In this document: piece by piece, positions 10,544-32,480 of the stretch
How the letters are laid out: each line of letters begins with the position of its first letter
Position numbering within the stretch: the stretch's first letter is position 1
Assembly: GCA_000247545.1 (NCBI GenBank)
Contig: CP003316.1
Coordinates: 1,831,233-1,895,232 of the forward strand
Length of the DNA: 64,000 nt
Direction of reading: 5' to 3'
From: Pyrobaculum oguniense TE7
GTDB lineage: Archaea; Thermoproteota; Thermoprotei; Thermoproteales; Thermoproteaceae
Translations under genes and position numbers: made by a program
The notes under the pieces: generated by a model
The model's database searches: none
What the model saw: only the letters and a program-made list of their open reading frames with translations
Told to the model about the DNA's origin: nothing

Positions 10544-10746
10544 TACCGGAGGGGGGAAAAGAGGGAGGTCAGCGGCTTCCCGCACAATGTCCGCCTGTCT
10601 TCAAATGCTGTGCTGTTGACAAGCCACAAAACGCCGCATTGGGCGGCTCAAGCTGGAGCCGCCCAGCAAAAGACGTAGATGTCTTAACAACTCGGGAACA
10701 AAAGCTCGTTCCAACGGCGGTACAGCCACTGGAGCCCTGGAAAACA
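10544..10746. other. Intergenic region with a 9-bp hairpin upstream of the RadA-family gene
   Basis: No gene is supported. GGGCGGCTC (10641-10649) pairs with GAGCCGCCC (10656-10664). It could be a terminator-like or RNA structure, but I see no promoter in front of it. Confidence 0.35.
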
Positions 10747-11713: not shown

Positions 11714-11845
11714 GCGCCGACCTGAGTGATTAACCTGACAACTTTTTCCCATCGGTCAGGTAGTGGGTCAGGATCCTGGGCCCAGGATCCTGAGAATCCG
11801 CCTGACTGACGTTTTTAACCGTCAGGCGGACGTGTCAGGTAAGCG
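11714..11845 (-). repeat. Cloverleaf palindromic repeat, copy 3
   Basis: Reverse orientation, with the GGGCCC core. The third arm is CCTGAC...GTCAGG with a loop (GATGGGAAAAAG on one strand) unlike copies 1, 4 and 7, yet the pairing is kept. It starts 6 bases after the RadA-family stop and ends 16 bases before the stop of the next gene. Confidence 0.85.
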
Positions 11846-11860
11846 TGTGTTTTGAAAAAA

Positions 11861-13301: not shown

Positions 13302-14537
13302 CTAGATCCGGATGACAACGTAGAACGGCAACTTAGGGGGATCACGGTGTGTAGTGACGGCTATCGTCTTTCGAGCTATTTGTCTGAGAAGAACTCTTGC
13401 CTCATCGACATCTCCAATCTCCCAGTCGCTCAAAATTACAAACATTGAGGCGTCCCTGTGTCTCTCGAAGACGTACTCCAACACTGGCCTTATCAAAGTT
13501 CCACCGCCTCCTTTAACCTTGAGCTTCCTAATGTCAGTATAGCGTCTAATCTCAAATTCCTGTTGCACAATTGTGTCCCAGATAACCGCAACGACGTGCT
13601 CTACCTCCTTCGCGGCGGCGTAGACCTCTGACATGAACTGGGAAAGCTCCTTCTCACCTATGGAGCCAGACGCGTCTACCATTATGACTATCTTGCCGTA
13701 GCGCCACAACTCTTTGCCGGGGTAAACCCCCGGTAGCTTTCTCGATGGACGCATCCACGTCCTCTTAACGCTATGGCCCAACCCCTTTACCAAGGTAGCG
13801 CGCAAAAGGCGCCGCCAATCCACCTTAGGCTTCAAGAGCTCAAGCAATCGCTCCCAACGGCCCGGATCCCTTCCGGCAGCTCTCAACGCCATCACTGCCT
13901 CAACTACCTTTTTGATAACGCGCTCTTCTACCTCAGCGGTGGATAGAGGTTTTCCAGCTGGCTCGTCTCCCTCTTGAATTACAACTCTCCCATCGGCGCC
14001 GTCGCCTGCCACTACTCCGCTCCCGCCATCACTCTTGGGCACCCCAATGTCATGTATAAACTGTTTTAGCGGCTTGTTCGGGTTGCGGTTGTGTATTTCT
14101 CTTATTATCTCCTCAACGCTCTTTTCCTCGACATTTTTCACACCGAAAGTTTCCTCCACGTCCACCGGCATTATAATCTCTAAAGTTAGCCCAGTAGCGT
14201 ACATTTCTAGTTCTTGATTCGCCTTTGCATCCATAACGAAGTTGTATACCCTCTCCTCTAGGGGGTACCGCGCACTCAGTTGTTTCCAGCGTGGGACATG
14301 GCGGAGGACTATGTGCATAAGCTCATGGAGAAGGACAAAGGTTCGATCCTTCTCAGGCAGACCCAGCCACTTTTCTGGGTTGAGGAAAATCCTAATGCCG
14401 TCTGTGTATGCCACGACGTCCCCGTCCACGGCAACAATAGTGGTTCGTCTCAGCAACAAGGCCAAAAATGGATCTTTCAGCATAAGGCCAGCCACTATGT
14501 TGTTAACGGCGCGCCTCGCCTCCTCAATATGTGTCAT
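13302..14537 (-). CDS. VWA-domain protein with metallopeptidase-like N-terminal domain (DUF2201 type)
   Basis: 411 residues. FVLLHELMHIVLRH (about 67-80) is an HExxH-type zinc site. The C-terminal domain carries a MIDAS-type motif, IVIMVDASGSIGEKEL, near residue 287, as in VWA folds. A Gly/Asp-rich linker lies between. Such proteins pair with MoxR ATPases, and here the start overlaps the upstream MoxR gene as ATGA, so the two form one unit. In other organisms MoxR/VWA pairs act in metal insertion or protein maturation. The client here is unknown. Confidence 0.8.
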   Translation of the reverse strand: MTHIEEARRAVNNIVAGLMLKDPFLALLLRRTTIVAVDGDVVAYTDGIRIFLNPEKWLGLPEKDRTFVLLHELMHIVLRHVPRWKQLSARYPLEERVYNFVMDAKANQELEMYATGLTLEIIMPVDVEETFGVKNVEEKSVEEIIREIHNRNPNKPLKQFIHDIGVPKSDGGSGVVAGDGADGRVVIQEGDEPAGKPLSTAEVEERVIKKVVEAVMALRAAGRDPGRWERLLELLKPKVDWRRLLRATLVKGLGHSVKRTWMRPSRKLPGVYPGKELWRYGKIVIMVDASGSIGEKELSQFMSEVYAAAKEVEHVVAVIWDTIVQQEFEIRRYTDIRKLKVKGGGGTLIRPVLEYVFERHRDASMFVILSDWEIGDVDEARVLLRQIARKTIAVTTHRDPPKLPFYVVIRI

Positions 14538-15640
14538 ACGTACCGCGATATCTCATTGGCTACTTTTATGAAAAGGTCTGGCATTTTCGTTATAACGGCA
14601 ATGCGCTTCTCTTTACTCATTATCACAACAAGAAGAACTAACATTTCTCTATGCGTTGTTGCAAGGTGGGCAAGGAAGCCCCTAAGCGGGCCTGTCAAGC
14701 GGTCAACAGGCTGGCGGGCGACGGCGTCTAGGAGAAGCAACCGCTGGTTTAAGTCTATCCGATCAAAATACTTTGGATCCTCCTCAAGTCTCCTCAATGC
14801 TTCGCTTATGTCAAGACGCGTCTTGAGTAAAGCGGCAAATTTTACCCCAACATCATCTCCTAAGTTGCCTACGATCAGAGACTCTTTCAACTCCCATGAT
14901 GCTTCATTGTATTTGTGTAGTAACAAAGCAACAGAAGTCCAAGAACGCGGTGTTGGGAAGGCGGAGAACTCATCCTCAGGAGGCTTTAAGATGTCTTCTG
15001 GATACATCGCAAGGTAAAGCGCGGCCAACCTCTCCCAATTGTCGCCGTATCTTCTCTGCATATACGCTGCCCATTCTTCTACACTTGGCGGTGATACATG
15101 AATGATTGTCATACGGTTGCGAAGTGGTTTTGGCAATGGACGTGATATTTCCGCCCACTCAGGTGGATTGCCAGCGGCGATTATCTTAACGTTGTCGTTT
15201 ATTTTTAATGTCCAACCAGCCTCCTTTTCAAGGATCAAAGAATAGTACATTGAAATTTGGTCTTCCCGCGGTACATTAGTAAGTTCATCAAGGAAGACGG
15301 TGCCTGCAATATCTTTAAGCGTAAACACCTTTAAGACCTTCGGCAGAAGAAACTCAACAAATTCACCTCTGTGCTGAGGAATGCCGAGGTCTTCGGGAAA
15401 GATGTGTGGCGCTACGATTCTGATAAAGACGTAGTATCTTTGTGGACTTTGGAAAAGGTCATTGGGGATATTATCATTGCGGAGGTCGACAAAGCGACGG
15501 CCTAAGGTCTCGGCCTCCCTCTCGGCCTTTTGCCTCACGACCTCTGTTTTCCCAACCCCTGGAGGTCCGAGAAGAAGGATTCGATCCTCCAGGGGGATTT
15601 GGGTTATTTTGATCGTTTGGAGTTTTAGTTCGGACTTCAT
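14534..15640 (-). CDS. MoxR-type AAA+ ATPase
   Basis: 368 residues. LLGPPGVGKTEVVRQ (about 27-41) is Walker A and TVFLDELTN is Walker B. AAGNPPEW marks sensor 1, and RNRMTIIHV is the arginine-containing element typical of MoxR/CbbQ ATPases. It probably remodels or activates the VWA partner encoded just downstream. The start ATG at 15640 has no strong box A. A possible system link with the ankyrin genes to the right is only positional. Confidence 0.8.
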   Translation of the reverse strand: MKSELKLQTIKITQIPLEDRILLLGPPGVGKTEVVRQKAEREAETLGRRFVDLRNDNIPNDLFQSPQRYYVFIRIVAPHIFPEDLGIPQHRGEFVEFLLPKVLKVFTLKDIAGTVFLDELTNVPREDQISMYYSLILEKEAGWTLKINDNVKIIAAGNPPEWAEISRPLPKPLRNRMTIIHVSPPSVEEWAAYMQRRYGDNWERLAALYLAMYPEDILKPPEDEFSAFPTPRSWTSVALLLHKYNEASWELKESLIVGNLGDDVGVKFAALLKTRLDISEALRRLEEDPKYFDRIDLNQRLLLLDAVARQPVDRLTGPLRGFLAHLATTHREMLVLLVVIMSKEKRIAVITKMPDLFIKVANEISRYV

Positions 15641-16039: not shown

Positions 16040-17407
16040 GTGACTGAAGTTGTTGAGCTGAAGAGGGCAGTTGTAAAAAACGACGTAGCAGCCCTTATCA
16101 AAAACCCTGACTTGATAAATTACGCCGGAGTTCCCTCCGGCGGCCTCACCCCCTTCCAGCTGGCGGTTGTGCTGGATCGCGTAGCGATAGTCAAGCTGAT
16201 CCTCGAGCACAGCCCAGAGCTTGCGAATTGGGCTGACTGGAGGAGGAGAGATGAGTTGGAGAAGCTCAAGGTCTTCGGCGTGGAGGCGCCAAACGGGACG
16301 CCGCTCCACGACGCCGCCTACTTCTGCCGGCCGGAAGTAGCCAAGCTTTTGTTGCAATACGGCGCCGACCCCGACGCCAGGGACAAACACGGCAATACGC
16401 CGCTCCACTACGCGGCGAGGAGGCGCTGTGTTGCAGTTGTGGAGTTGCTGCTCGACCGCGGCGCTGACCCCTACGCAGAGGGGGCGTTTGGCAGAGCGCC
16501 GTACGACGAGGCGTCTGACCCCCGCGTCGCCTACGCCTTCCTCCGCCGCGGAGTCAGCAGCTTGAAGCTGCGGAGGATTATCGCGGACTACGCCTGCCAC
16601 TCGGAGCCAGACGCCGAGTACATCGACGTCTTGTCCCCAGAGGACGCCGCCTTCTGTGCAAACCGCCAGCTGGCAGCAAAGGCGCTGGAGCGCGGCCGCT
16701 ATGACATCGCCGTCGCCGCCGCGGCGCAGGCTGGCGACGTCGCAATTGTGGAGAGGATACTGGCGGAGAGGCCGGAGCTGGCGCCCCTTGCGTTCAAATT
16801 CGCGGCGTCGCCGGCAGTGGTGGAGGCCGCGGAGAGGCGGTACAAGCCCTCCGCGGAAGAGCTGCAAGCCTTGCTCGAAGAGGCGGTGGAGCGCGGACAT
16901 GCGGAGCTCGTTGCGTACCTCTTGAACCGCGGCCTAAGCGCCGACTGCCGGCTGCTTGCGCTGGCTAAGGACGGCAAGATACTCGAGGCGGTTCTGAGCA
17001 GGGGGACTCCGCGGTGCGACAAGCCGTTCAGCCGCTTCGACAGCGCCGAGCTGCTGGAAGTTCTGGCGCGGTACTACGCCCCCACGCCGGAGGAGCTGTG
17101 CGAGGCCCTGGCGTCGGGCAAAGCCGCCAAGGCAGAGCTCTTGGCCAAGTACGTCAAGGCCGCCGACCCCAAATGCGTGTGCATGTACTTCCGCCCGCGC
17201 ATTGCGGCCATCCTCGTGGAGAGGGGCCTCCTCGACCCCAACGCGAGGTGCGGCAACTCTACAATCCTCCACTTGGCGGCCTCCAGCTGCGACCGCGGGC
17301 TCGCAGAGCTGCTGCTCAGCCGCGGCGCCGACGCGTCGACCGTCGACGCCCAGGGCAGAACCGCCCCCGAGGTCGCCTGCGGAGAGCTCTTAGACCTATT
17401 CATCTAG
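16040..17407 (+). CDS. Ankyrin-repeat protein 1
   Basis: 455 residues from a GTG. The N-terminal segment VELKRAVVKNDVAALIKNPD is shared by the whole array. Residues ~80-175 hold canonical ankyrin repeats (TPLHDAAYFC..EVAKLLLQYGADPDARD, then NTPLHYAARR). A central helical region carries YIDVLSPEDAAF and AAAAQAGDVAIVERILAERP. The C-terminus returns to ankyrin repeats ending PEVACGELLDLFI. It is probably a cytoplasmic protein-binding scaffold. No enzymatic domain is visible. It is the first of six tandem paralogues. Confidence 0.85.
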   Translation: MTEVVELKRAVVKNDVAALIKNPDLINYAGVPSGGLTPFQLAVVLDRVAIVKLILEHSPELANWADWRRRDELEKLKVFGVEAPNGTPLHDAAYFCRPEVAKLLLQYGADPDARDKHGNTPLHYAARRRCVAVVELLLDRGADPYAEGAFGRAPYDEASDPRVAYAFLRRGVSSLKLRRIIADYACHSEPDAEYIDVLSPEDAAFCANRQLAAKALERGRYDIAVAAAAQAGDVAIVERILAERPELAPLAFKFAASPAVVEAAERRYKPSAEELQALLEEAVERGHAELVAYLLNRGLSADCRLLALAKDGKILEAVLSRGTPRCDKPFSRFDSAELLEVLARYYAPTPEELCEALASGKAAKAELLAKYVKAADPKCVCMYFRPRIAAILVERGLLDPNARCGNSTILHLAASSCDRGLAELLLSRGADASTVDAQGRTAPEVACGELLDLFI

Positions 17408-17494
17408 CTGGCCTCCTTCCAGCCCTAAGGCGAGGGCTCCCTTAGCGGTTCACAGGTTTGTGTCATTCCTCGTTTCTTACACGTAACTCCGCAC

Positions 17495-18886
17495 ATGAGT
17501 TCCCCAGTTATCGAACTAAAAAAACTCGTCATCAAGAACGACGTCATAGCCCTCAAGATAAATCCCGGACTTTCTCAATATGCCGGAGTTTTGCTTGGAG
17601 ACCGTACTGCGCTTCAATTAGCAGTTATATTGGACAGGAGAGAAATTGTTGAACTGTTGCTTCAAAACAACAAAGAATTGCTCAATTGGGCGGACTGGAG
17701 AAAAAAAGAGGAGCTCAAAGCGCTCGAGGCTTTTGGGATTGATGTTCCATACGAGACGCCGCTTCATACGGCGTCGCGGTTCTGCCGGCCGGAAATCGCC
17801 GAGCTTCTGTTGCAATACGGCGCCGACCCCAATGCCAGGGACAGAGACGGCTTTACGCCGCTCCACATCGCGACAATTCATAAATGCGCTTCCGTCGTAG
17901 AGTTGTTGCTTAGACATGGAGCTGATCCTCATGCAGTAGACGGCAACAACAAGAGGCCGTATGACGCGGTTCAGACTCCTCAGCTTGCGTACTTGTATTT
18001 ACGCCATGGTATCTCTAGCGGCTATCTTCGGACGCTGGTGGCCAAGCATTTGTGTTACGAGTTTGTGCCCGAGTACCTTGACGTCCTGTCGCCTGACGAT
18101 CTTGATTTTTGCGTCAATCGAGAGTTTTTACAACGTGTTCTGCAATACAGGCGCTATGACATAGCAATCATCACTGCAACGCGGCTAGGCGACGTTGCCA
18201 CCGTAGAGAGGATATTGGCAGAGAGGCCTGAGCTCGCCTCTGTTGCGTTTAGGTACGTCGATACGCCGGAGATGTTAGAGGTTGTACTGAAGTTCTACAA
18301 ACCTTCTGACGAAGACTTGCAGTGGCTGTTTGAGATAGCCGTTGAGTATGACCGCCAAGAACTTGCCATATATCTTCTGTTGAACCTCAACATTAGAGTC
18401 GATTGCTACCATTTGAAAAATGCAAAGAGTGTTAGAGTTCTCGAGGAAATCTTGAAGAGATCTGGACGGCTGGAGTGCTATGGCTTGATATCTTCTCACA
18501 TTGCTGTGCCAGGGAAATTAGAAGTGCTAGCGCGCTATTATGAATTTACAGCTGACGACCTCTGTTATGCCCTTGAAATGGGCTACGCACAATCCGCGAG
18601 AATTATCGCGAAGCATGTTGTGTTTGTCACCCCTAAACACATTGACTGTATCTGCGAATACTTTGACGAAGAGGTTCTGAAGATTTTGCTGGAGCGCGGC
18701 CTCCTTGATCCCAATGCAAGGTGCGGCAAAACGCTGCTTCTCCACGAAGCAGCGTGGCACTGTGCCCGCGGGCTGGTTGATGTTTTGCTCCGCAACGGCG
18801 CCGATGTTACGGCCACTGACGCCTATGGCAGGTTCGCTCCCGAGGTCGCGTGCCGCGAGGTCGCGGATCTGTTTGCCCGTCTTTAA
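17495..18886 (+). CDS. Ankyrin-repeat protein 2
   Basis: 463 residues from the ATG at 17495 (MSSPVIELKKLVIKNDVIAL). It has the same three-part layout as its neighbours: N-terminal repeats (CRPEIAELLLQYGADPNARD), a helical middle (YLDVLSPDDLDFC; TATRLGDVATVERILAERP) and C-terminal repeats. The coding sequence is noticeably less GC-rich than copies 1 and 3, so the paralogues have different histories or drift. A block of about 45 bases encoding CRPEIAELLLQYGAD is nearly identical to that of its neighbours. Confidence 0.85.
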   Translation: MSSPVIELKKLVIKNDVIALKINPGLSQYAGVLLGDRTALQLAVILDRREIVELLLQNNKELLNWADWRKKEELKALEAFGIDVPYETPLHTASRFCRPEIAELLLQYGADPNARDRDGFTPLHIATIHKCASVVELLLRHGADPHAVDGNNKRPYDAVQTPQLAYLYLRHGISSGYLRTLVAKHLCYEFVPEYLDVLSPDDLDFCVNREFLQRVLQYRRYDIAIITATRLGDVATVERILAERPELASVAFRYVDTPEMLEVVLKFYKPSDEDLQWLFEIAVEYDRQELAIYLLLNLNIRVDCYHLKNAKSVRVLEEILKRSGRLECYGLISSHIAVPGKLEVLARYYEFTADDLCYALEMGYAQSARIIAKHVVFVTPKHIDCICEYFDEEVLKILLERGLLDPNARCGKTLLLHEAAWHCARGLVDVLLRNGADVTATDAYGRFAPEVACREVADLFARL

Positions 18887-18887
18887 T

Positions 18888-18908
18888 CCTCTTTTTTTAA
18901 GACGTCTG
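18888..18908 (+). promoter_or_regulatory. Array-type promoter (T-run plus AAGACGTCTG) before ankyrin gene 3
   Basis: The run TTTTTTTAAGACGTCTG is shared in position and sequence with the elements before ankyrin genes 4 and 5 and the seventh-gene remnant. Its AT box is about 22 bases before the ATG. The T-run may also terminate the preceding gene. Confidence 0.6.
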
Positions 18909-18917
18909 TTTTAATGC

Positions 18918-20327
18918 ATGAAATCCCCAGTTCTCGAATTGAAAAAGATCGTCGTGAAAAACGACGAGGCGGCCCTCGCTAAGAACCCAGAGCTGTTGAA
19001 CTACGCCGGGGTTCCGCTCAACCGCGTAACGCCTCTTGAGCTTGCGGTTAGAATGAGCCGCGTCCAAATCGTGAAGATGATCCTCGAGCAAAACCCGGCG
19101 CTGGTAAATTGGGCAGACTGGCGAAAGAGGGAGGAGCTTGAAAAGCTCAAAGCGCTTGGCGTGGAGGTGCCCTACGGCACGCCCCTCCACGAGACCGCTG
19201 AGTACTGCCGGCCGGAAGTCGCCGAGCTTCTGTTGCAATACGGCGCCGACCCAAACGCGCAAGACCGCTCTGGGAGCACGGCTCTCCACTACGCGGCGGA
19301 GAGCAGGTGCGCCCCCGTAGCGGAGCTTCTGCTCAAGCACGGCGCTGACCCGCGCGTAAAAGACGGCATATATGGGAAAAGGCCGTATGAGATGGTAAAA
19401 GACCCCCACACCGCATACGTGTTTTTGAAGCACGGCGTTTCTGACCCGAACCTCATGGAGCTCGTCGCCGGGCACCTCTGCCGCGGGGGGCTCGCGCCAG
19501 AGTACCTCGACGTGCTGACGCCGTACGTGTTTGGCTCATGCCCGTCGCCAGAGCTCGCGGAGCTGGCCATGGGGCGCGGCCGCCTGGACATCGCCGTCGC
19601 AGTCGCGGCCCAAGTGCCCAGGCTAGACGTGGTTGAGCGAGTTCTCGCAGAGAGGCCGGATCTCGCGCACTTGGCGGTGAGGTACGCCGCGGCGCCGGAA
19701 GTGCTGGAGCTGGCCGAGAGGTACTACACGCCTTCCGCCGAGGAGCTGCAGGCGTTGCTTGAAAAAGCCATAGCGTACGGCCACGCGAGGCTTGTTGAAC
19801 GCCTGCTGGACAGAGAGGGGCTTGACGTTGACTGTGCAATGCTCCTAAAGGCAAAGAGCCCAGAAACTGTCGCCGCGGTTTTGAAAAAGAGGCGGCTGCA
19901 GTGCAGCGGAATTTCGCGGCGCTTTCTCGACGACCCCGCATCGCTGAAAGCGCTGTTGCAATACTACCAGCCCACTGCCGACGACTTGTGCTACGCCTTA
20001 GAGGGTCACTACGGCGGCAAACATATCGAGCGCCGCAGTGAAGCGGTGAAGATGCTGGCCGAACGCGTCGCATCGGTAAATATCGACTGCATTTGCGAAT
20101 ACTTCAGAAAAGACATAGTAATGCTGTTAATCGAGAGGGGCGTTCTGAACCCCAACGCCCGGTGCGGGGACAGGTCGCTTTTGCACATAGCCGCATCGGA
20201 GTGCGACCGCGAGCTTGCAGAGTTTTTGCTCCGCCATGGCGCTGATACCGCCGCTACTAGCGACAGCGGAGAGCTTGCGGCAGAGTCGGCGTGTAGAGAA
20301 GTCTTGGACTTGTTCATCAGCCGTTAA
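18918..20327 (+). CDS. Ankyrin-repeat protein 3
   Basis: 469 residues from the ATG at 18918 (MKSPVLELKKIVVKND). Repeats are visible at about 90-170 (TPLHETAEYC; EVAELLLQYGADPNAQD; TALHYAAESRCAPVAELLLK) and at the C-terminus (LLHIAASECDRELAEFLLRH). The middle region follows the array pattern YLDVLTPYVFGSCPSPELAE. It has the shared promoter at 18888-18908. It ends with ACREVLDLFISR, the same tail motif as the other full-length members. Confidence 0.85.
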   Translation: MKSPVLELKKIVVKNDEAALAKNPELLNYAGVPLNRVTPLELAVRMSRVQIVKMILEQNPALVNWADWRKREELEKLKALGVEVPYGTPLHETAEYCRPEVAELLLQYGADPNAQDRSGSTALHYAAESRCAPVAELLLKHGADPRVKDGIYGKRPYEMVKDPHTAYVFLKHGVSDPNLMELVAGHLCRGGLAPEYLDVLTPYVFGSCPSPELAELAMGRGRLDIAVAVAAQVPRLDVVERVLAERPDLAHLAVRYAAAPEVLELAERYYTPSAEELQALLEKAIAYGHARLVERLLDREGLDVDCAMLLKAKSPETVAAVLKKRRLQCSGISRRFLDDPASLKALLQYYQPTADDLCYALEGHYGGKHIERRSEAVKMLAERVASVNIDCICEYFRKDIVMLLIERGVLNPNARCGDRSLLHIAASECDRELAEFLLRHGADTAATSDSGELAAESACREVLDLFISR

Positions 20328-20456
20328 GAGCCCTGGAGGCGTTTTGAAAGCGCCAAAGAGGGCAACCGCGCCCTACGCTTTTCTGCAACCGTTTTATACG
20401 GGGCGCCAGGCAGAGCGCGTTCTCAGCTACGCGTCCCGAGGCTACCCACTGCTAAT

Positions 20457-20472
20457 CTTTGTTTTTAAGACG
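20457..20472 (+). promoter_or_regulatory. Array-type promoter before ankyrin gene 4
   Basis: CTTTGTTTTTAAGACG, matching the elements at 18888, 21946 and 22698. It lies about 20 bases before the ATG at 20485. Confidence 0.55.
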
Positions 20473-20484
20473 GCTGTGTGGTAC

Positions 20485-21945
20485 ATGAATTCAGAAGTCC
20501 TCAAGTTAAAACAAGCAATTGCGAAAAACGATATTAGACTTCTTGAGGAAAACCCCGAACTGTTGGACTACGCATTTGTGGTAGATGGGATGCCCTCGAT
20601 CCACCTTGCAGTGGCGCTGAACAGAGTCCAAATCGTGAAGATGCTCCTTAAACGAAACCCAGAGCTCGTCAACTGGGGCGACCAGCGAGTTGCCAAGGAG
20701 CTGGCCAAGTTGAAGGTGTTCGGCGTAAAGGTTCCCGACGAGACAATGCTCCACGTGGCGGCTCGCTACTGCCGGCCGGAAGTAGCCGAGCTTTTGTTGC
20801 AACACGGAGCAGACCCAGACGTGCTGGACGACTACTGGCGCACGCCGCTTCACTACGCCGCATCTGTCGGCTGTGTTCCCGTAGCGGAGTTGCTGCTTAG
20901 ACATGGAGCTGACCCCAATGAACAAGATAGTTATTGGCATACGCCGCTCCACATAGCCGCTGAAGGCGGCCATGCGGCCATAGTTGAGTTGTTGCTTAAG
21001 CACGGCGCCGACCCAAACGCTGAGGGCCGCAACGGGATGAAGCCCTACGAGTTGGCACACGACCTGCGCACTGCGTATGCGTTCCTGCGCTTCGCAGGTC
21101 CCAACGCCAAATTAATGAGGTTTGTCGCCCGCGAGCTTTGCGAGAATCCAAGCGCATTTTCTCCTGAATACCTCGATGTCTTGACGCCTGACTCGTTTGA
21201 CCAATGCCAGTCGCCAGAGCTCGTGAAGCTGGCCTTGGACCGCCCGGACGTTGCAATTGCCATTGCGGCCCAGCTCGGCGACGTTGAAACAGTGGAAAAA
21301 ATACTGGTAGAGAGGCCGGAGCTGGCCTCAATTGTGGCCTCACACGCTTCAACGCCAGAAGTGCTGGAGCTAGCAGAGAAGCACTACACGCCTTCCGCCG
21401 AGGAGTTGCAGGAGTTACTCAAAAGAGCCGCAGCGCGCGGACACGCGCGGCTGGTGGCACACTTATTAGACCGCGGCCTTGTGGCCAGCTGCGACATGTT
21501 GACTGAAAATCCAGAGGTCGTCGACGTGGTTTTGAAGAGGGGGTTGCAGTGCGACGGAATATTGAGACGGTACATTGACAATCACGACGTGTTGAGGGTC
21601 GTGCTGAAGTACTACAGGCCGACTGCCAACGACTTGTGTGCCGCGTTGAAGGTCGGCGCAAAGACCGCTAGGCTAATCGCCGAACACGTCGAGTCTGTAG
21701 ACACCTATTGCCTTTGTGAGCACCTCGACTTAGACGTGGCATTTATCCTGGTAGAGCGCGGCCTCCTTGACCCAAACACCAGGTGCAAAGGCTGGCCGCT
21801 CCTCCACATAGCGGCGTCTGAGTGCCACCGCCCGCTCGCGGAGGCGCTGCTCCGCCGCGGAGCCGACGTCGCGGCGCTCAATCCCGCTGACAATCTGGCG
21901 GCAGAGGTGGCGTGCAAAGAGGTCTTAGACCTCTTTGCCCAATAA
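20485..21945 (+). CDS. Ankyrin-repeat protein 4
   Basis: 486 residues. The start at 20485 (MNSEVLKLKQAIAKND) is set by alignment to the other members and by the shared promoter. The in-frame upstream extension overlaps the previous gene's end and is ignored. It has one more N-terminal ankyrin unit than its neighbours: TPLHYAASVGCVPVAELLLR followed by TPLHIAAEGGHAAIVELLLK. This shows unit gain within the array. It ends VACKEVLDLFAQ. Confidence 0.85.
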   Translation: MNSEVLKLKQAIAKNDIRLLEENPELLDYAFVVDGMPSIHLAVALNRVQIVKMLLKRNPELVNWGDQRVAKELAKLKVFGVKVPDETMLHVAARYCRPEVAELLLQHGADPDVLDDYWRTPLHYAASVGCVPVAELLLRHGADPNEQDSYWHTPLHIAAEGGHAAIVELLLKHGADPNAEGRNGMKPYELAHDLRTAYAFLRFAGPNAKLMRFVARELCENPSAFSPEYLDVLTPDSFDQCQSPELVKLALDRPDVAIAIAAQLGDVETVEKILVERPELASIVASHASTPEVLELAEKHYTPSAEELQELLKRAAARGHARLVAHLLDRGLVASCDMLTENPEVVDVVLKRGLQCDGILRRYIDNHDVLRVVLKYYRPTANDLCAALKVGAKTARLIAEHVESVDTYCLCEHLDLDVAFILVERGLLDPNTRCKGWPLLHIAASECHRPLAEALLRRGADVAALNPADNLAAEVACKEVLDLFAQ

Positions 21946-21963
21946 TCCTTTTTTTTAAAGACG
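21946..21963 (+). promoter_or_regulatory. Array-type promoter before ankyrin gene 5
   Basis: TCCTTTTTTTTAAAGACG, the same element as before genes 3 and 4, about 22 bases before the ATG at 21977. Confidence 0.55.
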
Positions 21964-21976
21964 TTTGTAATGACAC

Positions 21977-22678
21977 ATGAATTCGGAAATCTTTAAGCTA
22001 AAAGAGGCTATCGAAAAAAACGATATTGAAACGCTAAAGAGGTCGCCCGGGTTGCTGGACTTCGCTGGCGTGGTGGTAGAGCGAGGAATGACGTCTATAC
22101 ATATAGCGGTTGAACGGGACAGGAGAGAGGTAGTGAAGATGTTCCTGGAACATAACCCAGAGCTTGCGAATTGGGCGGACTGGCGGAGGAGAGATGAGTT
22201 GGGGAAGCTCAAGGCCTTCGGCGTGGAGGCGCCCTACGGCACGCCCCTTCACACCGCTGCGGAATATTGCCGCGTTGAAATAGCCGAACTCTTGCTCCAG
22301 CGCGGGGCTGACCCTAATGCAAAGACTTGGTGGGGCTGGACGCCTCTCCACTACGCGGCGTGGAAACGATGTACTCCTGTGACCGAATTGCTACTCCGCC
22401 ACGGAGCTGATCCCTACGCGAAAGATGGAGTGGATCAAACGCCGTATGATTTAGTGTCTGATCCGCATGTTGCATTGTCATTCATACGTCGTGGCATTGG
22501 TGGTAAAAAGCTGTGGGAAATCGTCATAAACTACGCACGCTACCAGAGCTCGCGCCAGGATCTAAATTCCATCATCAGTTTTGAGCAATTGTTGCCCAGA
22601 TATGAGCTGCCAATTATAAGGTCAGAGCCGATTAACAGGAAGTGGTTGTCTATTTGCAATGATGATAGCTTTTGGTAA
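21977..22678 (+). CDS. Ankyrin-repeat protein 5 (truncated)
   Basis: 233 residues, half the usual length. The N-terminal half matches the family (MNSEIFKLKEAIEKND; CRVEIAELLLQRGADPNAKT; TPLHYAAWKRCTPVTELLLR; PYDLVSDPHVALSFIRRG). After about residue 190 it runs into unrelated sequence (FEQLLPRYELPII...). The central and C-terminal ankyrin parts are lost. It could still be made as a short binding protein or be a decaying gene. Confidence 0.75.
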   Translation: MNSEIFKLKEAIEKNDIETLKRSPGLLDFAGVVVERGMTSIHIAVERDRREVVKMFLEHNPELANWADWRRRDELGKLKAFGVEAPYGTPLHTAAEYCRVEIAELLLQRGADPNAKTWWGWTPLHYAAWKRCTPVTELLLRHGADPYAKDGVDQTPYDLVSDPHVALSFIRRGIGGKKLWEIVINYARYQSSRQDLNSIISFEQLLPRYELPIIRSEPINRKWLSICNDDSFW

Positions 22679-22697
22679 TTCTCGTTTTTTAACTAAT

Positions 22698-22717
22698 CCT
22701 TGTTTTTAGGACGTCTT
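22698..22717 (+). promoter_or_regulatory. Array-type promoter before the seventh-gene remnant
   Basis: TCCTTGTTTTTAGGACGTCT keeps the array element, although the gene behind it has decayed. Confidence 0.5.
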
Positions 22718-22725
22718 TCTAACGT

Positions 22726-22833
22726 ATAGAGTCGGTCTTAGAATTAAAAAAGGTTATTGCCCAAAACGACGTAGAGGTTCTTAAAAACCCCCGAATTTTT
22801 GGGGTCGACGTTCCCTTCGGAACGTCCTTCTGA
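22726..22833 (+). pseudogene. Remnant of a seventh ankyrin-array gene
   Basis: Reading from ATA at 22726 gives IESVLELKKVIAQNDVEVL, then KNPRIFGVDVPFGTSF and a stop. The first part matches the family N-terminus (xSPVLELKKIVVKND..LxKNP). FGVDVPFGT matches a motif about 60 residues further on in the full proteins (GVEVPYGTPLH). The start ATG has become ATA, the segment between the two motifs is deleted, and the frame ends at once. The promoter element is still in place. Confidence 0.7.
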
Positions 22834-22879
22834 AACATTGGGCAGAACAATCCTTGTTTTTCTTCTCCAAGTTGTTGCC

Positions 22880-24232
22880 ATGAATTCGGTTCTTAAACTG
22901 AAAAGGGCAATTATAAAGAACGATGTTGAGTATCTTGAAAAGAACCCCGACTTGATCGACTACGCAGGGGTTTTGGAGGGAAAGTACCCCCCTGTGCATT
23001 TGGCAGTTAGGCTAGGCAGAGGGCAAATTGTCGAAATGATCCTGAAGCGAAACCCGGCGCTTGTTAACTGGGGCAACTGGAAGCCCGAAGGAGATGGGGC
23101 GTTGGAGTACTTCGGCGTTAAGGTGCCAGACGAGACGCCCCTCCACGTGGCAGCTTTGTATTGCTTACCGCAGATGGCGGAGCTTCTGCTCAAGCACGGA
23201 GCCGACCCAAACGCCATGAATGTGCACGGAGATACGCCCCTCCACGTAGCCGCATTTTACGGCTGCACCTCCGTTGTTGAGCTGTTGCTTAGGCATGGCG
23301 CCGACCCAGACATTGACGGTTTTGAGGGCTGGAAGCCGTATGATAGGATAAAGGATCCTCATATCGCATATCTATTCCTGCGGTACGGCGTCCGCGACAA
23401 GCGGCTGTCAAGACTCGTCGGAGGCCACATATGCCGCCAGTTCAAGCCGGAGTATCTAGACGTAATTACGCCCGATGATGTCGTCTGCCCATCGCCGAAG
23501 CTTCTCAGAGGCGCGCTGGAGCGCAACCGCTATGACATCGCCGCCGTCGTTGCGGCGCAGTTAGGCGACGCTGCGACTGTCGAGAGAATATTGGCGGAGA
23601 GGCCGGAGCTCGCCCCTATTGCGTTTAGGCATGCCGCCGCGCCAGCAGTGGTGGAGGTTGTAGAGAAATACTACAAACCCACTGCCGAAGAGTTGCAAGC
23701 GCTGTTCGACGAAGCTGTAACACAGGGCCGAGCACAGCTTGTTGCGTATTTGTTAGAACGGGGCGTTGAGGTTAGTTGCAAACACTTAGAAATCACAAAT
23801 GCCCAAGTCGCCGAGGCCATTTTGAGCCGAAGGAAAATACAATGCGATGACCTCTTCCAAAAACACATTGAAAACTACGAGATGATCTACGTGTTATCCC
23901 GATACTATACCCCGTCTGCAAATGACCTCTGTCACGCACTGCATAAAAAGTCTAGTGCCGCTAAGGTGCTCGCAGAGTATGTTCAATCGGTTGACACTAA
24001 GTGCATTTGCAAACACCTCGACGAAGACGTTGCTATAATATTGTTGCGTAGAGGCCTCCTCGATCCAAACACGCGATGCGGCGACGGGACTCTCCTCCAT
24101 GAGGCCGCGTCTTGGTGCAAACGCGAGCTAGTGAAGGAATTGCTCAGCCGCGGAGCCGACGATATGGCTGTAGACGAATACAACAGATTGCCAGTAGAGG
24201 TGGCGTGCTCCTCCGTCTTGGACTTGTTCTAA
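22880..24232 (+). CDS. Ankyrin-repeat protein 6
   Basis: 450 residues from the ATG at 22880 (MNSVLKLKRAIIKNDVEYL). The in-frame stretch upstream lacks family similarity. N-terminal units are TPLHVAALYCLPQMAELLLK and TPLHVAAFYGCTSVVELLLR. The middle is YLDVITPDDVVCPSP and VAAQLGDAATVERILAERP, and the C-terminal unit is LLHEAASWCKRELVKELLSR. Its upstream sequence (AATCCTTGTTTTTCTTC) is a weaker version of the array promoter. It is the last member before the palindromic repeat. Confidence 0.85.
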   Translation: MNSVLKLKRAIIKNDVEYLEKNPDLIDYAGVLEGKYPPVHLAVRLGRGQIVEMILKRNPALVNWGNWKPEGDGALEYFGVKVPDETPLHVAALYCLPQMAELLLKHGADPNAMNVHGDTPLHVAAFYGCTSVVELLLRHGADPDIDGFEGWKPYDRIKDPHIAYLFLRYGVRDKRLSRLVGGHICRQFKPEYLDVITPDDVVCPSPKLLRGALERNRYDIAAVVAAQLGDAATVERILAERPELAPIAFRHAAAPAVVEVVEKYYKPTAEELQALFDEAVTQGRAQLVAYLLERGVEVSCKHLEITNAQVAEAILSRRKIQCDDLFQKHIENYEMIYVLSRYYTPSANDLCHALHKKSSAAKVLAEYVQSVDTKCICKHLDEDVAIILLRRGLLDPNTRCGDGTLLHEAASWCKRELVKELLSRGADDMAVDEYNRLPVEVACSSVLDLF

Positions 24233-24244: not shown

Positions 24245-24375
24245 CGCTTACCTGACCGACTAGCCTGACAACTAAATTTCGTCAGTCTTATCGTCGGTCA
24301 GGATCCTGGGCCCAGGATCCTGAGAATCCGCCTGACCGGTGAAAAAAAGAGTCAGGCGGACGTGTCAGGTCGGCG
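24245..24375 (-). repeat. Cloverleaf palindromic repeat, copy 4
   Basis: Reverse orientation, with the perfect GGGCCC core palindrome. The first arm loop is a T-run (CTTTTTTT with CACCGG), as in copies 6 and 7. The third arm matches copies 1 and 7. It ends about 30 bases before a PaREP2b gene, as copy 1 does before the other PaREP2b gene. Confidence 0.9.
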
Positions 24376-24405
24376 TAGCCCAGGATTATTAAAAAACTTG
24401 AAAAG

Positions 24406-25548
24406 ATGGAAAAGCGCATGAAGGGACACAACGAGCGGATTAGAATTGAGCACAAGCTAATTGGCGATGGGGCAATAGTCTGGTTTAAAGACAAAAAGGG
24501 GAGCGAGCTGGCTCACATCAACGTGAGGTGGGACGGCAAAAGCCTGCGCGCAATTTTTAGCGGCACTAGGGAGAAGGCGGAGAGGTTAGCCTCAATACTG
24601 AACGCATTGGGCGCCGCGGCCGAGGCGAGGCAGTACGGCAAAAAATGGCGCGTGGAGCTAACCACCGACTCGATTACGGCCATACGCCGCTCAGAGTGGC
24701 TGGAGGCTGTGAAGGCCCTCGTCGAGGCATTGTACAAAAACGGCGTGATAAGCAACGAGAAGAGAGAGGAGTTGATTAAGGAGTTGGAGGCCGGCCCCAA
24801 CGTCGTGAAGGTGGCCGGAGTAGAGATAAGCGTGGTGAAGAAGGAGGAGGCCGGCTCAAAGCAACTGGTAATCAGATACCAACCGACGTCGGCAGAGGCC
24901 TTTGAAGCCGCAGTGAAGGCGCTTAAAGAGGCCGGCCTCGAGGAGGGGGTGCACTTCACCGCCAAGAGGCCAGAGAAAGAAGGGAGAGGCTACATCTACC
25001 TCAAGATCCCTGCCAGCCTTTGGAGGCTTGAGGAGCTGAAGCGGCAGGGCGTGAAGTGGGCCGAAAAGGCGGTGAAGCGGCTAGAGGAGATAGCAAAGGC
25101 GAGGGGCTTCTACGACCTCGTAGAGAAGCACTTAAAACCGGCTAGAGAGGCCGAGACGGTAGACCCTAGGGGGATAGTCGCGGAGGATCCGGAGAGGGGC
25201 GTTAAAGCGGTGATAAAGGACGTAAAAGTGATGTGGGAAGACGGCCGGCCGAGAATTGTCGTGGAGTACGAGGCAGGCGGCGAGGTGAAGTCCTTCTACT
25301 TCACCTGGGGCGTGGAGAAGGACGGGAAGGTCAGAGCCAAGGTGAGGCTAAACTACGAGAAGGCCGCCGTGTTGGCGGCGCTGACGGGCGACGAGACGCT
25401 GAGGGGGAAGAAACAAGTGACGCTTACCGCCAGACACTTGTTCACCATGGCGAAGATAAAAGACGTAGGTTGGACATTGTTGAGGTGGTACGCCGGAGTG
25501 ATGGCTGAGGGGCTTAAGGATACAGACGCCGGCGCTTTGCCTATATGA
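24406..25548 (+). CDS. PaREP2b-type repeat-family protein (short form)
   Basis: 380 residues. From IRIEHKLIGDGAIVWFKD onward it aligns throughout with the C-terminal third of the large protein at 45033-48665 and with 1366-2583. The family normally ends LLRWYAEVMAE. Here the frame continues with GLKDTDAGALPI, flanking DNA read through after the repeat homology ends. An ATTATTAAAAAA stretch about 22-28 bases before the ATG at 24406 may be its promoter, lying just outside repeat copy 4. The function is unknown. Confidence 0.8.
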   Translation: MEKRMKGHNERIRIEHKLIGDGAIVWFKDKKGSELAHINVRWDGKSLRAIFSGTREKAERLASILNALGAAAEARQYGKKWRVELTTDSITAIRRSEWLEAVKALVEALYKNGVISNEKREELIKELEAGPNVVKVAGVEISVVKKEEAGSKQLVIRYQPTSAEAFEAAVKALKEAGLEEGVHFTAKRPEKEGRGYIYLKIPASLWRLEELKRQGVKWAEKAVKRLEEIAKARGFYDLVEKHLKPAREAETVDPRGIVAEDPERGVKAVIKDVKVMWEDGRPRIVVEYEAGGEVKSFYFTWGVEKDGKVRAKVRLNYEKAAVLAALTGDETLRGKKQVTLTARHLFTMAKIKDVGWTLLRWYAGVMAEGLKDTDAGALPI

Positions 25549-25903: not shown

Positions 25904-26104
25904 ATGCAGGTCTTCGCGCCGGAGCTTCCGCCTCGCGCCCTGCACCTGTGTGCCAGAGTCGCTGGATGCGGCTCTGGAAAAACACAACGATGGTTGTCTC
26001 AGTATATTCAAACGGTTAACCCCTTTCTTGGGCATGGCCGAGCGCCGTCTTCCGCCGTCAACTTCAAACCGTGGTCAATACCTCTAGCAACAACGCCGGC
26101 CTGA
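25904..26104 (+). pseudogene. Possible fragment of an ATPase or helicase-like gene
   Basis: A 66-residue frame contains VAGCGSGKTQRW, which resembles motif I of SF2 helicases (AxxGxGKT). Nothing else in it is recognisable, and the frame runs into palindromic repeat copy 5. It is at best a broken remnant. The motif could also be chance. Confidence 0.2.
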
Positions 26105-26224
26105 CTTCCGATCCTGACAGCCAAAATTCGTGTGTCAGGCTGTCTGTCAGGATGCTGAATTCAGGATGCTGACTGTCCGCCTGACCGACGTTTTCGGCCG
26201 TCAGGTGGACGTGTCAGGTCGGCG
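26094..26224 (-). repeat. Cloverleaf palindromic repeat, copy 5 (GAATTC-core subfamily)
   Basis: Reverse orientation. The core reads CAGGATGCTG, AATT, CAGGATGCTG, so the inner CTGAATTCAG palindrome is kept. The third arm (CAGCCAAAATTCGTGTGTC) is shared with copy 2 only, which defines a second subfamily. Confidence 0.8.
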
Positions 26225-26326
26225 TTTTGCTATGTATATTGCGGCGAGCTTGGCGAGGGCTGGCCTCCGGAGGCCTGTGTGGGCGGCGGCGTACCGGTCG
26301 CCGTCTTTAACCACGTCGTAGCCGTG
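26201..26326 (-). pseudogene. C-terminal fragment of an unknown gene
   Basis: The minus-strand frame reads HGYDVVKDGDRYAAAHTGLR, then RPALAKLAAIYIAK, before entering the repeat. Its upstream part has been replaced by the GC-rich RNA element at 26326. The codon pattern looks like real protein, but I do not recognise it. Confidence 0.3.
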
Positions 26327-26863: not shown

Positions 26864-28000
26864 TCAGAACGCCGCTAACGCAATGGCCAAAGAGGAAAAA
26901 GAGGGGGTGAGCTCGGAAAACCTCTTCGCCGTCCACATCAGCGGCACCTCGTCTCTCGGCGCCTCGAAGCCGCACTTGGGGCACCTCACCCTCCTATTCG
27001 GCAACTCCTCCATCTTGGCCTCGCAACGGGGACAAATCGTGCTGTAGAGTCGCGCTTCGCGGTACGGCACGCCGTACCACTCCGCCAATTGTTTTATTCT
27101 CTTCTTGAGCCGCCCAACGTCGAGGTAGATCTTCTTTGAGGGGGCGTAGCGAGATTGCTTGATCTCCCTCAGCGATTCGTCCTTCGGCGCGTCCACTACA
27201 ATTAACGCTTTGTATTGCCTGGCTAACCTCACGATTTTCTTCGCCGCCTCGTCTGCAAATTCTCGTAACAGACGCCGTAATCTACTTTCAGCGGCCACCG
27301 CCTGCCGGCAATATTCGCCCTTTTTCGCGCATAACGAGTCCAACTTGCTAATCTCCTTCTGAAGCCTTCCGATTTTCGACAAGTGCGGCCTCTCTGTGCC
27401 AGAAGCTAAGATTTTGTCCTTCTCCACAACTCCCCACACAACGCCGTTGTGGAGGCCGTTTAAATCGACCGCGAGGACGCGTCTAACATCAATTGGTTCA
27501 ACATCTCTGGCAAAGGTAAGTGCCACGTTAAACGTTACAATGTTACTACGTTTCACACGACCGACCCACGCCATTGCCAACACCGGCTTGCCCCCTTCTT
27601 CAACTCGCTCTTTAATCCACTTGATGCTACTCTTCTTGAGCTTCAGCACGATGGTTCCGCCGCCCCACTTCCTAATCCTAACCTCTCCCTTTGACAAGTC
27701 TATAAAGACGCCGCAGCCCACATCCTTCTCGTTGTTGATGCGTAATTGTATGTTAAACGGCAACGGCACATTCCACTTGTCTTTCTTAAGACCGTTGGTG
27801 GGGATAAGCTTGAGAACATATTTGAGCTTCATGGCAAAGTACTTCAGCGGGTTTTGCTCTGGCATGGGCGCCTTGAAGCCCGATTTGTACCACTCCGTTG
27901 CCCATTCGCGGAATTGTTGTTGTATCTTGATGAACATCTCCAATTGCTCCGGCGGAATTTCCTCCGTTTTGCGTCTTATTAACAAAGTTCTGTACTTCAT
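26864..28000 (-). CDS. tnpB: TnpB-type RNA-guided nuclease homologue (IS605 OrfB family)
   Basis: 378 residues from the ATG at 28000. A TTG eight codons earlier is also conserved in the second copy. RuvC-I is VLAVDLNGLHNGV. The RuvC-II position reads LIVVDAPKDESLREI, with Asp where Glu is usual. A four-cysteine zinc ribbon, CPRC...CPKC, precedes the RuvC-III Asp in APRDEVPLMW, where the usual NAA is missing. It is about 80% identical by eye to the copy at 38067. TnpB proteins cut DNA guided by RNA from the element's right end and help the element persist. The changed motifs leave activity uncertain. Confidence 0.85.
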   Translation of the reverse strand: MKYRTLLIRRKTEEIPPEQLEMFIKIQQQFREWATEWYKSGFKAPMPEQNPLKYFAMKLKYVLKLIPTNGLKKDKWNVPLPFNIQLRINNEKDVGCGVFIDLSKGEVRIRKWGGGTIVLKLKKSSIKWIKERVEEGGKPVLAMAWVGRVKRSNIVTFNVALTFARDVEPIDVRRVLAVDLNGLHNGVVWGVVEKDKILASGTERPHLSKIGRLQKEISKLDSLCAKKGEYCRQAVAAESRLRRLLREFADEAAKKIVRLARQYKALIVVDAPKDESLREIKQSRYAPSKKIYLDVGRLKKRIKQLAEWYGVPYREARLYSTICPRCEAKMEELPNRRVRCPKCGFEAPRDEVPLMWTAKRFSELTPSFSSLAIALAAF

Positions 28001-28023
28001 GTCTCTGTTTGCGTAAATACACA

Positions 28024-28104
28024 ATTGAAAAATTGACGCCAGTTCTAACGACTAAGCTCGCATACGCCATCAAGGCGATACTCGAGCTCAACTCAATCCT
28101 CTAG
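28024..28104 (+). pseudogene. 3' end of a gene cut off at the tnpB element's left edge
   Basis: The plus-strand frame reads IEKLTPVLTTKLAYAIKAIL, then ELNSIL and stop. It begins exactly where tnpB-copy homology (CAATTGTGTATTT) ends. It looks like the natural C-terminus of a helical protein interrupted by the element. I do not recognise the parent gene. Confidence 0.4.
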
Positions 28105-28454: not shown

Positions 28455-28585
28455 CGCTTACCTGACAGATTAGCCTGACAGTTCTTTTCCATCAGTCAGG
28501 CTGTCAGTCAGGATCCTGGGCCCAGGATCCTGACAATCCGCCTGACCGGTGAAAAAAAGAGTCAGGTGGACGTGTCAGGTCGGCG
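28455..28585 (-). repeat. Cloverleaf palindromic repeat, copy 6
   Basis: Reverse orientation, with the perfect GGGCCC core. The third arm is AGCCTGAC...GTCAGGCT, eight paired bases, with the loop TGATGGAAAAGAACT on one strand. Its right edge touches the stop codon of the surface-protein cluster at 28586. Confidence 0.9.
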
Positions 28586-28939
28586 TCAGTCTCGGCTGGG
28601 CTCGTAGAACATGAGCAACTGGGCGCCTAGCAACACCACATAAAAAGGCACGGCGTCTGGCCTGAGGCTTAGGGACAAGGCCCCGAGCATGGCGGCTCCC
28701 CCAGCCGCGGTGGAGACCAGGGATAGCGAGGAGCCGAGGGCGTATGCCAAGAGGGCCACGTCCTGGGGCGGCTCCACGGCCAGGAAGGCGAGCACTGCGG
28801 GGAGGCCCCTCGCGAGCTCCTTCAAGGGCTCCTCCTCAGACAGGGATGCAATTGCGATAATGGCGAGAGCATAAAAGGCGGAGTCGGGGAAGGCCAGGGA
28901 AAAAAGGACGGGCGCCGGGAGGAGCAAGAGGTGCCTCAC
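28586..28939 (-). CDS. Small polytopic membrane protein
   Basis: 117 residues with about four hydrophobic helices (LLLLPAPVLFSLAF; FYALAIIAIASL; VALLAYALGSSLSLV; VPFYVVLLGAQLLMFY). It overlaps the upstream 688-residue gene by four bases and ends exactly at repeat copy 6. It is the last gene of the surface cluster and perhaps a membrane partner of those proteins. Confidence 0.65.
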   Translation of the reverse strand: MRHLLLLPAPVLFSLAFPDSAFYALAIIAIASLSEEEPLKELARGLPAVLAFLAVEPPQDVALLAYALGSSLSLVSTAAGGAAMLGALSLSLRPDAVPFYVVLLGAQLLMFYEPSRD

Positions 28940-31002
28940 CGCCTCTTAAGCCAGAGGGCGGCCGCCGCGGCGACTACAGCCACCGAGGCCACCGCCGCAA
29001 CCGCCAAAGCGTCCAGCTGGTACACAGCCACGTAGACGCCCGGCGCCGCCACCACGTCGCTGGGAGACCACTGGGCGAACTTCCAGAAGAGGTTGTGCCT
29101 ATCGCGATCCGGCGGGGGCAAAACGTAGCCCTCCGGAAGCCACCTCTCCTCCCGCCCCCACGGGTACTGCAACACGGCGAGATACTCCCTGGACACCCTC
29201 GCCTTTATTTCAACAGGCCTCTCTACCTTGTCGGGGAGCTCCCACCCGTTGAAGTAAATCCTGGTCTGCCCGTCGTCGTAGAGCTTAGCCGGCGCCTTCG
29301 GCTCAGGGGGCTTGGCCCCTTCGTCGACCCACGCCGTATAGGTGAAGTTAGGAGCGGTGTAGTTCACCAAATACTGCCTCTTGTAAAGCGCGATGTAGAC
29401 CCCCGGCGCAACAACGCGCCTCGCCTCCCTAGACCCGTCGCCCCAGCGCAGAAACGCCAGCCTAGTCCCGTTGCCGAAGTCCACCGCCTCGTCCGCGTAT
29501 ATAACCACGGAGGCGCCCGGCCTCAGCCATAGCTCAGTCAAGTTGTGCTGGCCGCGGGTGTACGCCTCTGCGAGGAGGAGGCGGTGCTCCTCAAACGACA
29601 CTTCGACATACGCCGGGAGCCCGGCGTATGTAAAGCCCTCCACAGGCGCCATGGGGAGGCCGCGGCTGTCGAAAGCCGATACGCCCTTGACAACCCTCTT
29701 CACCCCGTTATCCGTAATCTCGAGCGGGATTTCGAGGCGGTAGAGCGGGATCACCCTCAAGGCGCCTTCCACGTCCACGGTGATTGTGGCTATTGGGGGC
29801 TGCCTCGCGCCGCCCACCAGCCACCCGGCGAGCACCGCCTTGATCCTGCCGACGTTGCTCCCCACCTCTGCTTCTGCCGGCGCGGCGTATGCGGTGGGGC
29901 CGGCGGCGAGGGCTGGGCCCCTGGCTGGGGGCACCACTTCGACCCGGTAGAGCCTTCTGTACTTGACGAGGCGGCCGTCGAACTGCTCAACAACGCAGGC
30001 GGAGTCCGTCAAGTTGTAGGGCATGGGGGCGGGCTCCTCCCCCCTCGGCACGTAGACCACGGCCCTCCCAGTCACGTTGTACTCCGCGGCGCCGGCCTTG
30101 ACAAGGCCGTAGGGACAACCAACTACTTCCACCTCCCGTTGCGTAAACGAGTAGACGGAGACGCCTGAGTCGTCTTGCACGGCGAGGGTGAAGCCCCGGA
30201 AGTCAAGGGCGAGCGACCTGGGCATGTTGGCCGGGATTGTGGCCACCAGTTGACCCCCGCGGTAGAGCTCCACCCTGTCTGCGAAGCCGATTGCCAGGAC
30301 GTCCCCGTCTCCCGAGACAGCAAGAGCGTATACTGGCTCTCTGACCGGGATTACGCGGGCGCCCCAGTACACCGCGCCCTCGGCCGCAAACGCGAGGACG
30401 CAGTTTTGCGAAACGGCGGCGGGCGGGCTCAGCCAGAGCATCTCGCCGATGCCCACATACTCCCTCCCGTCTACTATCAAGTACGGCTTATCCCGCTTAG
30501 CGACTGCCACTACGTGGTTGCAGCGGAGGGGGTGCTCTACGTAGCCCGGCCTCCAGACGCCGTACCTTAGCGCCCCGCCGTCGTAGACCAGCGATATTAC
30601 GGGCGCCCCCACATTCCTCTCGCTAACTACCCGCCCGCTCTGCACCTCTACGATGCGGCCGTCCATGGCGCCCACCGCCACCTTGTTGCAGTCGGTGGCG
30701 ATGGCGGAGGCGTTTATCTTCAAGACGGCAGACCAAAGCGCTACGCCCCTTACGTACAGGGACACGCGCGTTCCCGCCCATGTGCCGTTGGACAGCTGAT
30801 GTGCTACAGCCAGACAGGAGCCCATTGGATCCGTGGCTGTGAGGGCGCTATGCGCCTCCACGCTCCAAAGCCTCTGCCCGAGGCCGTTCATTGCGCCGAA
30901 CTCGTCCAGCGTGGAGTAGTACACCACGTCTCCGCCCTCGGAGACGTAGACGGCGGCGAGCGCCAGCGCCGCCAGCGCCAGTATGTATATTCCCCTACGC
31001 AT
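28936..31002 (-). CDS. Large membrane-anchored extracellular protein with beta-propeller-like repeats
   Basis: 688 residues. There is an N-terminal signal or anchor (YILALAALALAAVYV), a long extracellular part and a C-terminal helix followed by LKRR, so the C-terminus is cytoplasmic. Residues ~60-300 show repeated short beta units ending GDGDVLAIGFADRVELYRGG, like a propeller. The C-terminal ~250 residues contain DFGNGTRLAFLRWGDGSREA, a repeat also seen in the 806-residue neighbour. Many NxT/S sequons are present. It probably forms part of the cell envelope. The precise role is unknown. Confidence 0.7.
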   Translation of the reverse strand: MRRGIYILALAALALAAVYVSEGGDVVYYSTLDEFGAMNGLGQRLWSVEAHSALTATDPMGSCLAVAHQLSNGTWAGTRVSLYVRGVALWSAVLKINASAIATDCNKVAVGAMDGRIVEVQSGRVVSERNVGAPVISLVYDGGALRYGVWRPGYVEHPLRCNHVVAVAKRDKPYLIVDGREYVGIGEMLWLSPPAAVSQNCVLAFAAEGAVYWGARVIPVREPVYALAVSGDGDVLAIGFADRVELYRGGQLVATIPANMPRSLALDFRGFTLAVQDDSGVSVYSFTQREVEVVGCPYGLVKAGAAEYNVTGRAVVYVPRGEEPAPMPYNLTDSACVVEQFDGRLVKYRRLYRVEVVPPARGPALAAGPTAYAAPAEAEVGSNVGRIKAVLAGWLVGGARQPPIATITVDVEGALRVIPLYRLEIPLEITDNGVKRVVKGVSAFDSRGLPMAPVEGFTYAGLPAYVEVSFEEHRLLLAEAYTRGQHNLTELWLRPGASVVIYADEAVDFGNGTRLAFLRWGDGSREARRVVAPGVYIALYKRQYLVNYTAPNFTYTAWVDEGAKPPEPKAPAKLYDDGQTRIYFNGWELPDKVERPVEIKARVSREYLAVLQYPWGREERWLPEGYVLPPPDRDRHNLFWKFAQWSPSDVVAAPGVYVAVYQLDALAVAAVASVAVVAAAAALWLKRR

Positions 31003-31035
31003 GTACGGGAAAAAAGCTGGGGAGGATTTTGAAAG

Positions 31036-32433: not shown

Positions 32434-32480
32434 GGGAGAGACGGAGGGAAAAGAAACATTGAAAAAATACTTGATTTCGG

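Follow-up and report, generated by a model that had tools for sequence, protein, structure and literature searches.

What does a row of tandem ankyrin-repeat genes do in a Pyrobaculum genome? The row lies in the window, a stretch of 64,000 nucleotides of the Pyrobaculum oguniense TE7 chromosome that was analysed here at its full length. The array very probably encodes a set of diversified binders carried by a strain-specific island. Its best reading is an orphan, homogeneous, polyimmunity-like row of cytoplasmic inhibitors, for which immunity to toxins would be the tentative role.

The gene array and its promoter element

In total, seven ankyrin gene copies were identified, comprising five full-length paralogues (450-486 aa), one truncated gene and one remnant, all arranged head to tail on one strand (1,847.3-1,855.5 kb of the contig; Table 1). 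The intergenic gaps from g1 to g6 are, in order, 87, 31, 157, 31 and 201 nt. Pfam ankyrin models match all six frames (g1-g6) above the curated cut-off, and pairwise identities are 48-57% in the aligned parts of g1-g6 (approximately 50% among the full-length paralogues). Six tandem ankyrin paralogues, one of them truncated, had been described in the first-pass annotation; the six open frames are as described there, but the seventh copy had been overlooked. This remnant corresponds to the N-terminal part of its paralogues, reading IESVLELKKVIAQNDVEVLKNP, next FGVDVPFGT and then TGA, and it retains the promoter element.

The promoter element, TTTTTAAGACGTCTG, begins 23-24 nt ahead of g3, g4, g5 and the remnant, in good agreement with the earlier placement about 22 bases before the ATG of several copies, and is lacking in g1, g2 and g6. 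This distance is consistent with the promoters of leaderless genes in archaea, and the genes of the array appear to be transcribed each from a promoter of its own. When up to three mismatches were allowed, the window contained seven matches versus 1.23 expected (0 of 100 shuffles reached seven), and four of them, with 0, 1, 2 and 2 mismatches, are located in the array. Genome-wide, 12 matches with up to two mismatches were found, compared with 4 for the reversed control. The top two lie in the array, and the matches beyond them are near the control level, on which ground a genome-wide regulon was rejected.

Table 1. Positions in the window of the array genes, their promoter elements and neighbouring features
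Feature	Position	Strand	Remarks
Cruciform repeat (~130 nt)	11715..11846	+	Island-specific family; upstream of the array
MoxR-type ATPase and vWA (DUF2201) pair	13302-15640		Transcribed away from the array
g1	16040..17407	+	Ankyrin-repeat protein, 455 aa; GTG start
g2	17495..18886	+	Ankyrin-repeat protein, 463 aa
Promoter element of g3	18894..18908	+	Exact; 24 nt before ATG
g3	18918..20327	+	Ankyrin-repeat protein, 469 aa
Promoter element of g4	20462..20476	+	1 mismatch; 23 nt before ATG
g4	20485..21945	+	Ankyrin-repeat protein, 486 aa; 1 additional 33-residue repeat; program-made ORF begins farther upstream, at TTG
Promoter element of g5	21953..21967	+	2 mismatches
g5	21977..22678	+	Truncated copy, 233 aa; homology up to about residue 185
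Promoter element of remnant	22703..22717	+	2 mismatches
Seventh copy, pseudogene remnant	22726..22833	+	ATA replaces the ATG of the paralogues; internal deletion; TGA stop
g6	22880..24232	+	Ankyrin-repeat protein, 450 aa; program-made ORF begins upstream, at TTG
Cruciform repeat (~130 nt)	24245..24376	+	Directly downstream of g6

The island and its distribution

The genome of P. oguniense TE7 consists of a chromosome of 2,436,033 bp and an element of 16,887 bp (PMC3558965). According to Table 5 of the same study, the segment at 1,825-1,870 kb (paREP2) is one of the largest that P. arsenaticum lacks. The absence of the array from P. arsenaticum rests on that report because this species did not seem to be among the genomes searched here: a long stretch flanking the array found no match of ~96% identity in any of them. 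Full-length homologues of the array proteins were found neither in the rest of the genus nor in the genomes of the family, nor in 398 genomes of the phylum when the middle part was used as the query. Genome contigs and viral contigs (two scans each), phages and plasmids likewise contained none, yielding generic ankyrin matches only. A further degraded ankyrin locus is present at 834 kb in the P. oguniense genome.

Besides the two cruciform repeats listed in Table 1, further copies of approximately 130 nt were found in the window at 1222-1347, 10413-10544, 26094-26225, 28455-28586 and 37515-37645. Five copies contain a perfect 26-bp palindrome; the copy after g6 is one of them and has a strong predicted fold (z -5.3). 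Nine of the approximately 10 copies in the genome are located at 1,826-1,869 kb, which corresponds to the published island, and the repeat is absent from every other Pyrobaculum genome searched. Under random placement, nine of ten repeats would fall within 45 kb with a chance of ~2e-15; local copying would suffice to explain this clustering, without mobility. No tyrosine recombinase able to act on the repeat was found above the cut-off in the genome.

Other genes of the window include three PaRep2b genes (1366-2583, 24406-25548 and 44934-48665), one of which has a long N-terminal extension (1243 aa), and two TnpB-like genes with a Cas12f1-like TNB domain (26864-28024 and 38043-39209), which are in opposite orientation and 83% complementary over 430 nt. 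Four large minus-strand frames at 28936-37551 match no family; several of them have hydrophobic starts or ends and possibly encode envelope proteins. A Pyrobaculum H/ACA-type sRNA 210 (RF02808) is located at 44501-44562.

Fold, variable face and history of the copies

The AlphaFold models of g1 and g6 (pLDDT 92.3 and 93.7; pTM 0.73 and 0.76) are helical from end to end, with a single dip in g6 (pLDDT 68, around residues 71-80), and the predicted solenoid extends over the entire chain. A Foldseek search matched the g1 model along its length with structures of ankyrins and DARPins (E 4e-12), with a best TM-score of 0.45; the modest TM-scores were attributed to differences in curvature between long solenoids. 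Canonical repeats are found at about residues 87-150 and near the C-terminus. At about residues 166-390 the repeats have diverged so far that Pfam misses them at its usual cut-off, and profile searches with this middle part gave weak ankyrin matches only (best E 0.0025; designed ankyrin, E 0.0046). As modelled, the whole chain is a single ankyrin-like solenoid with diverged central repeats. The structure prediction and the weak profile matches led to the rejection of a new domain family for the middle part, and the three-part layout with a separate helical middle, as first described, gives way to a continuous predicted solenoid. The array proteins resemble the ankyrin superfamily (Pfam Ank and Ank_2) in their canonical repeats and in the helical-repeat solenoid predicted throughout, whereas the central repeats below the usual cut-off and the invariant cysteines set them apart. 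Each full-length paralogue contains exactly 12 cysteines, and 12 of 12 occupy the same alignment columns despite the identity of ~50%. Two invariant cysteines fall in adjacent repeats, at position 15 of one and 16 of the other, and the invariant cysteines are likely to serve as disulfide staples.

DARPins are randomised at repeat positions 2, 3, 5, 13, 14 and 33, and these positions were taken to define the face in three canonical repeats of the array proteins. The pairwise difference between paralogues is 71% at the six face positions versus 32% at the other positions (0 of 20000 permutations), and versus 50% at back-face positions (P 0.03; three canonical repeats). In the repeat at residue 120, where the pairwise difference reaches 0.87-1.00 at the face positions, the face letters of the six copies are KRRDWV, HDSYWH, NFSRWD, RIESWF, RHSVKY and EVKEKD, and LLL, GADP and LH are invariant. 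The comparison shows that the diversity of the putative face is real, but over three repeats positive selection and loss of constraint are indistinguishable. The array proteins are similar to DARPins in having a constant framework with variability at the same six positions, whereas they are natural and longer and possess few repeats of canonical sequence.

Gene conversion among the copies was detected in two short tracts that remain significant after correction for 15 pairs, one between g1 and g2 (columns 97-127; 29 of 31 third positions identical; P 2e-4) and the other between g1 and g5 (columns 50-85; 31 of 36 third positions identical; P 2e-4). A g2-g6 tract was also found (P 0.0024), and the nearest paralogue switches along the gene length. 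The diversifying binding proteins envisaged in the first-pass annotation agree well with variability on the canonical ligand face, exchange of short tracts and the reported absence of the region from P. arsenaticum. It is possible, although rather doubtful, that the array represents a naturally diversified, antibody-like set of ankyrin binders, in which a disulfide-stapled scaffold would present a hypervariable face, each copy would be expressed from an individual promoter and specificity would spread through gene conversion inside the strain-specific island.

Synonymous sites are saturated or nearly so (dS of at least 1.3 in all pairs), and dN/dS ranges from 0.14 to 0.31 across the ten full-length pairs. 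These values point to purifying selection on the full-length paralogues overall; because synonymous sites are near saturation, they are no test of positive selection. The copies are therefore old, and recent duplication was rejected on this basis. The duplications thus long predate the split from the ~96%-identical sister, and the array has therefore been either lost in relatives or acquired ready-formed. With two of the seven copies broken and PaRep2b and TnpB-like genes present in the island, the array might be viewed as a non-adaptive relic, a duplicated gene family that no longer serves a function and sits in an island undergoing decay. This is quite improbable, however, given that five copies remain open under the above dN/dS range and retain all 12 cysteines.

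Candidate functions of the array proteins

Diversification of the face, local exchange among the copies and the strain specificity of the island (PMC3558965) would also suit proteins that recognise or inhibit virus or plasmid proteins, and PADLOC defence models include ankyrin domains. Such a role appears unlikely. The PADLOC matches are confined to the ankyrin repeats, with no full-length match to an anti-phage defence protein, no nuclease or other effector domain fused to the repeats was detected by the Pfam search, and viral contigs and phages contain no homologue beyond generic ankyrin repeats. The conflict with viruses that had been suggested at first is left without support by these searches, and the nearest functional lead for the array is toxin immunity.

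The MoxR-type ATPase and vWA protein encoded ~400 bp upstream of the array offer another potential partner, for which the array proteins would act as adaptors choosing substrates, and conflict systems that combine a MoxR-vWA pair with a third component have been described (PMC7159879). Ankyrin is, however, unmentioned in that study. Among the other genomes of the genus, a DNA search detected a related pair in G001 alone (57-67% protein identity to the pair of the window); there it is located at 48-50 kb, unlinked to the ankyrin gene, which lies at 1,101 kb. The partnership was rejected because the genes are far apart in G001, and this function is considered improbable. Secreted or host-modifying effectors, such as those of ankyrin-rich symbionts, are very improbable: ankyrin effectors occur among the NCBIfam matches, but these matches cover the repeats only and are all far under the curated cut-offs, no signal peptide was apparent when the array sequences were inspected by eye, and P. 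oguniense is a free-living archaeon.

Toxin immunity is a serious possibility that still falls short of probable. Other Pyrobaculum genomes contain polymorphic-toxin-like loci (L058 5180-8230; L051 9129-12038 and 1724-4773; L071 5754-14179; L072 2880-8188; and L073 3473-6691), and their organization resembles that of polymorphic toxin systems, in which cassettes are accompanied by immunity genes (PMC3482391). The long proteins encoded there have a hydrophobic start, a common N-terminal region and a variable C-terminus with a stretch such as DILGILDDGRLLIGEVK, which may correspond to a PD-(D/E)XK nuclease motif. One of them gave a weak NucS_C match (E 0.005), sequence searches revealed no PDB relative, and a literature search on Pyrobaculum with polymorphic toxins returned nothing apparently relevant; we only infer that this family consists of toxins. 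In G009, members of a DGLY...WPL family and standalone C-terminal pieces occur in alternation, and the layout in G003 is similar. The DGLY...WPL family occupies the immunity position at Pyrobaculum toxin-like loci.

Ankyrin genes were found at toxin-like loci in two genomes. In G006, the start of a 1011-aa ankyrin gene (L051 4773-7808) coincides with the stop codon of a toxin-like gene, whose recorded sequence appears to be interrupted by a change of frame. In G001, an ankyrin gene of 256 aa was found inside a toxin-like locus, on the other strand. Together, these two adjacencies would arise by chance with a probability of ~2e-4. Otherwise, the gene beside the toxin-like gene or cassette in G001 and G009 belongs to a separate immunity-like family. 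Neither of these two ankyrin genes is homologous to the array family over its full length; what they have in common with it are ankyrin repeats. The G006 protein also contains three occurrences of the cysteine spacing of the array (position 15 and then 16 in neighbouring repeats) and shares 39% identity with the array family over 173 aligned columns, whereas it is the product of a single gene, has many more repeats and is encoded directly behind a toxin-like gene. No intact toxin-like gene of this family was found in P. oguniense, which has only a C-terminal fragment, distant from the array at 1,447.7 kb, and no protein of the window matches the toxin-like proteins of other genomes.

Both homogeneous polyimmunity loci and immunity proteins of the ankyrin type (Imm-ank) have been reported from bacteria (Zhang et al. 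2012, PMC3482391). Like these loci, the array is a tandem, uninterrupted, same-strand row of diverged paralogues that is located in a variable region and has no toxin gene between its members, and ankyrin proteins are among the immunity types described. The known loci are composed mainly of SUKH, Imm6, Imm11, Imm28, Imm33, Imm36 and Imm41 genes, whereas the array is of the ankyrin type and archaeal, and its genome has no intact gene for a toxin of the candidate family. We infer that the variable face binds a protein, that this partner is a toxin and that specificity differs among the copies. The array would then encode cytoplasmic ankyrin-solenoid binders with a common scaffold and differing binding faces, each copy binding and blocking one variant of a protein toxin that competing Pyrobaculum cells deliver, and the row as a whole would act like a homogeneous polyimmunity locus. 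Duplication, point changes in the binding face and gene conversion over short tracts would generate new specificities, and worn copies, such as g5 and the remnant, would decay. Little is known about toxin-immunity competition in crenarchaea. If the array is an immunity set, it would be an example from an archaeon, based on ankyrin repeats, where the scaffold can be told from the binding face by sequence, and the specificities of the paralogues could be tested singly against the candidate toxin loci of other Pyrobaculum genomes.

Further ankyrin genes were observed elsewhere. A phage-like contig (L049 7296-11207) carries three tandem ankyrin genes with an N-terminal domain in common, which are linked to the array by generic repeats only, and at L056 6933-8406, from a genome belonging to the same family, a protein-kinase-like frame comes after an ankyrin frame.
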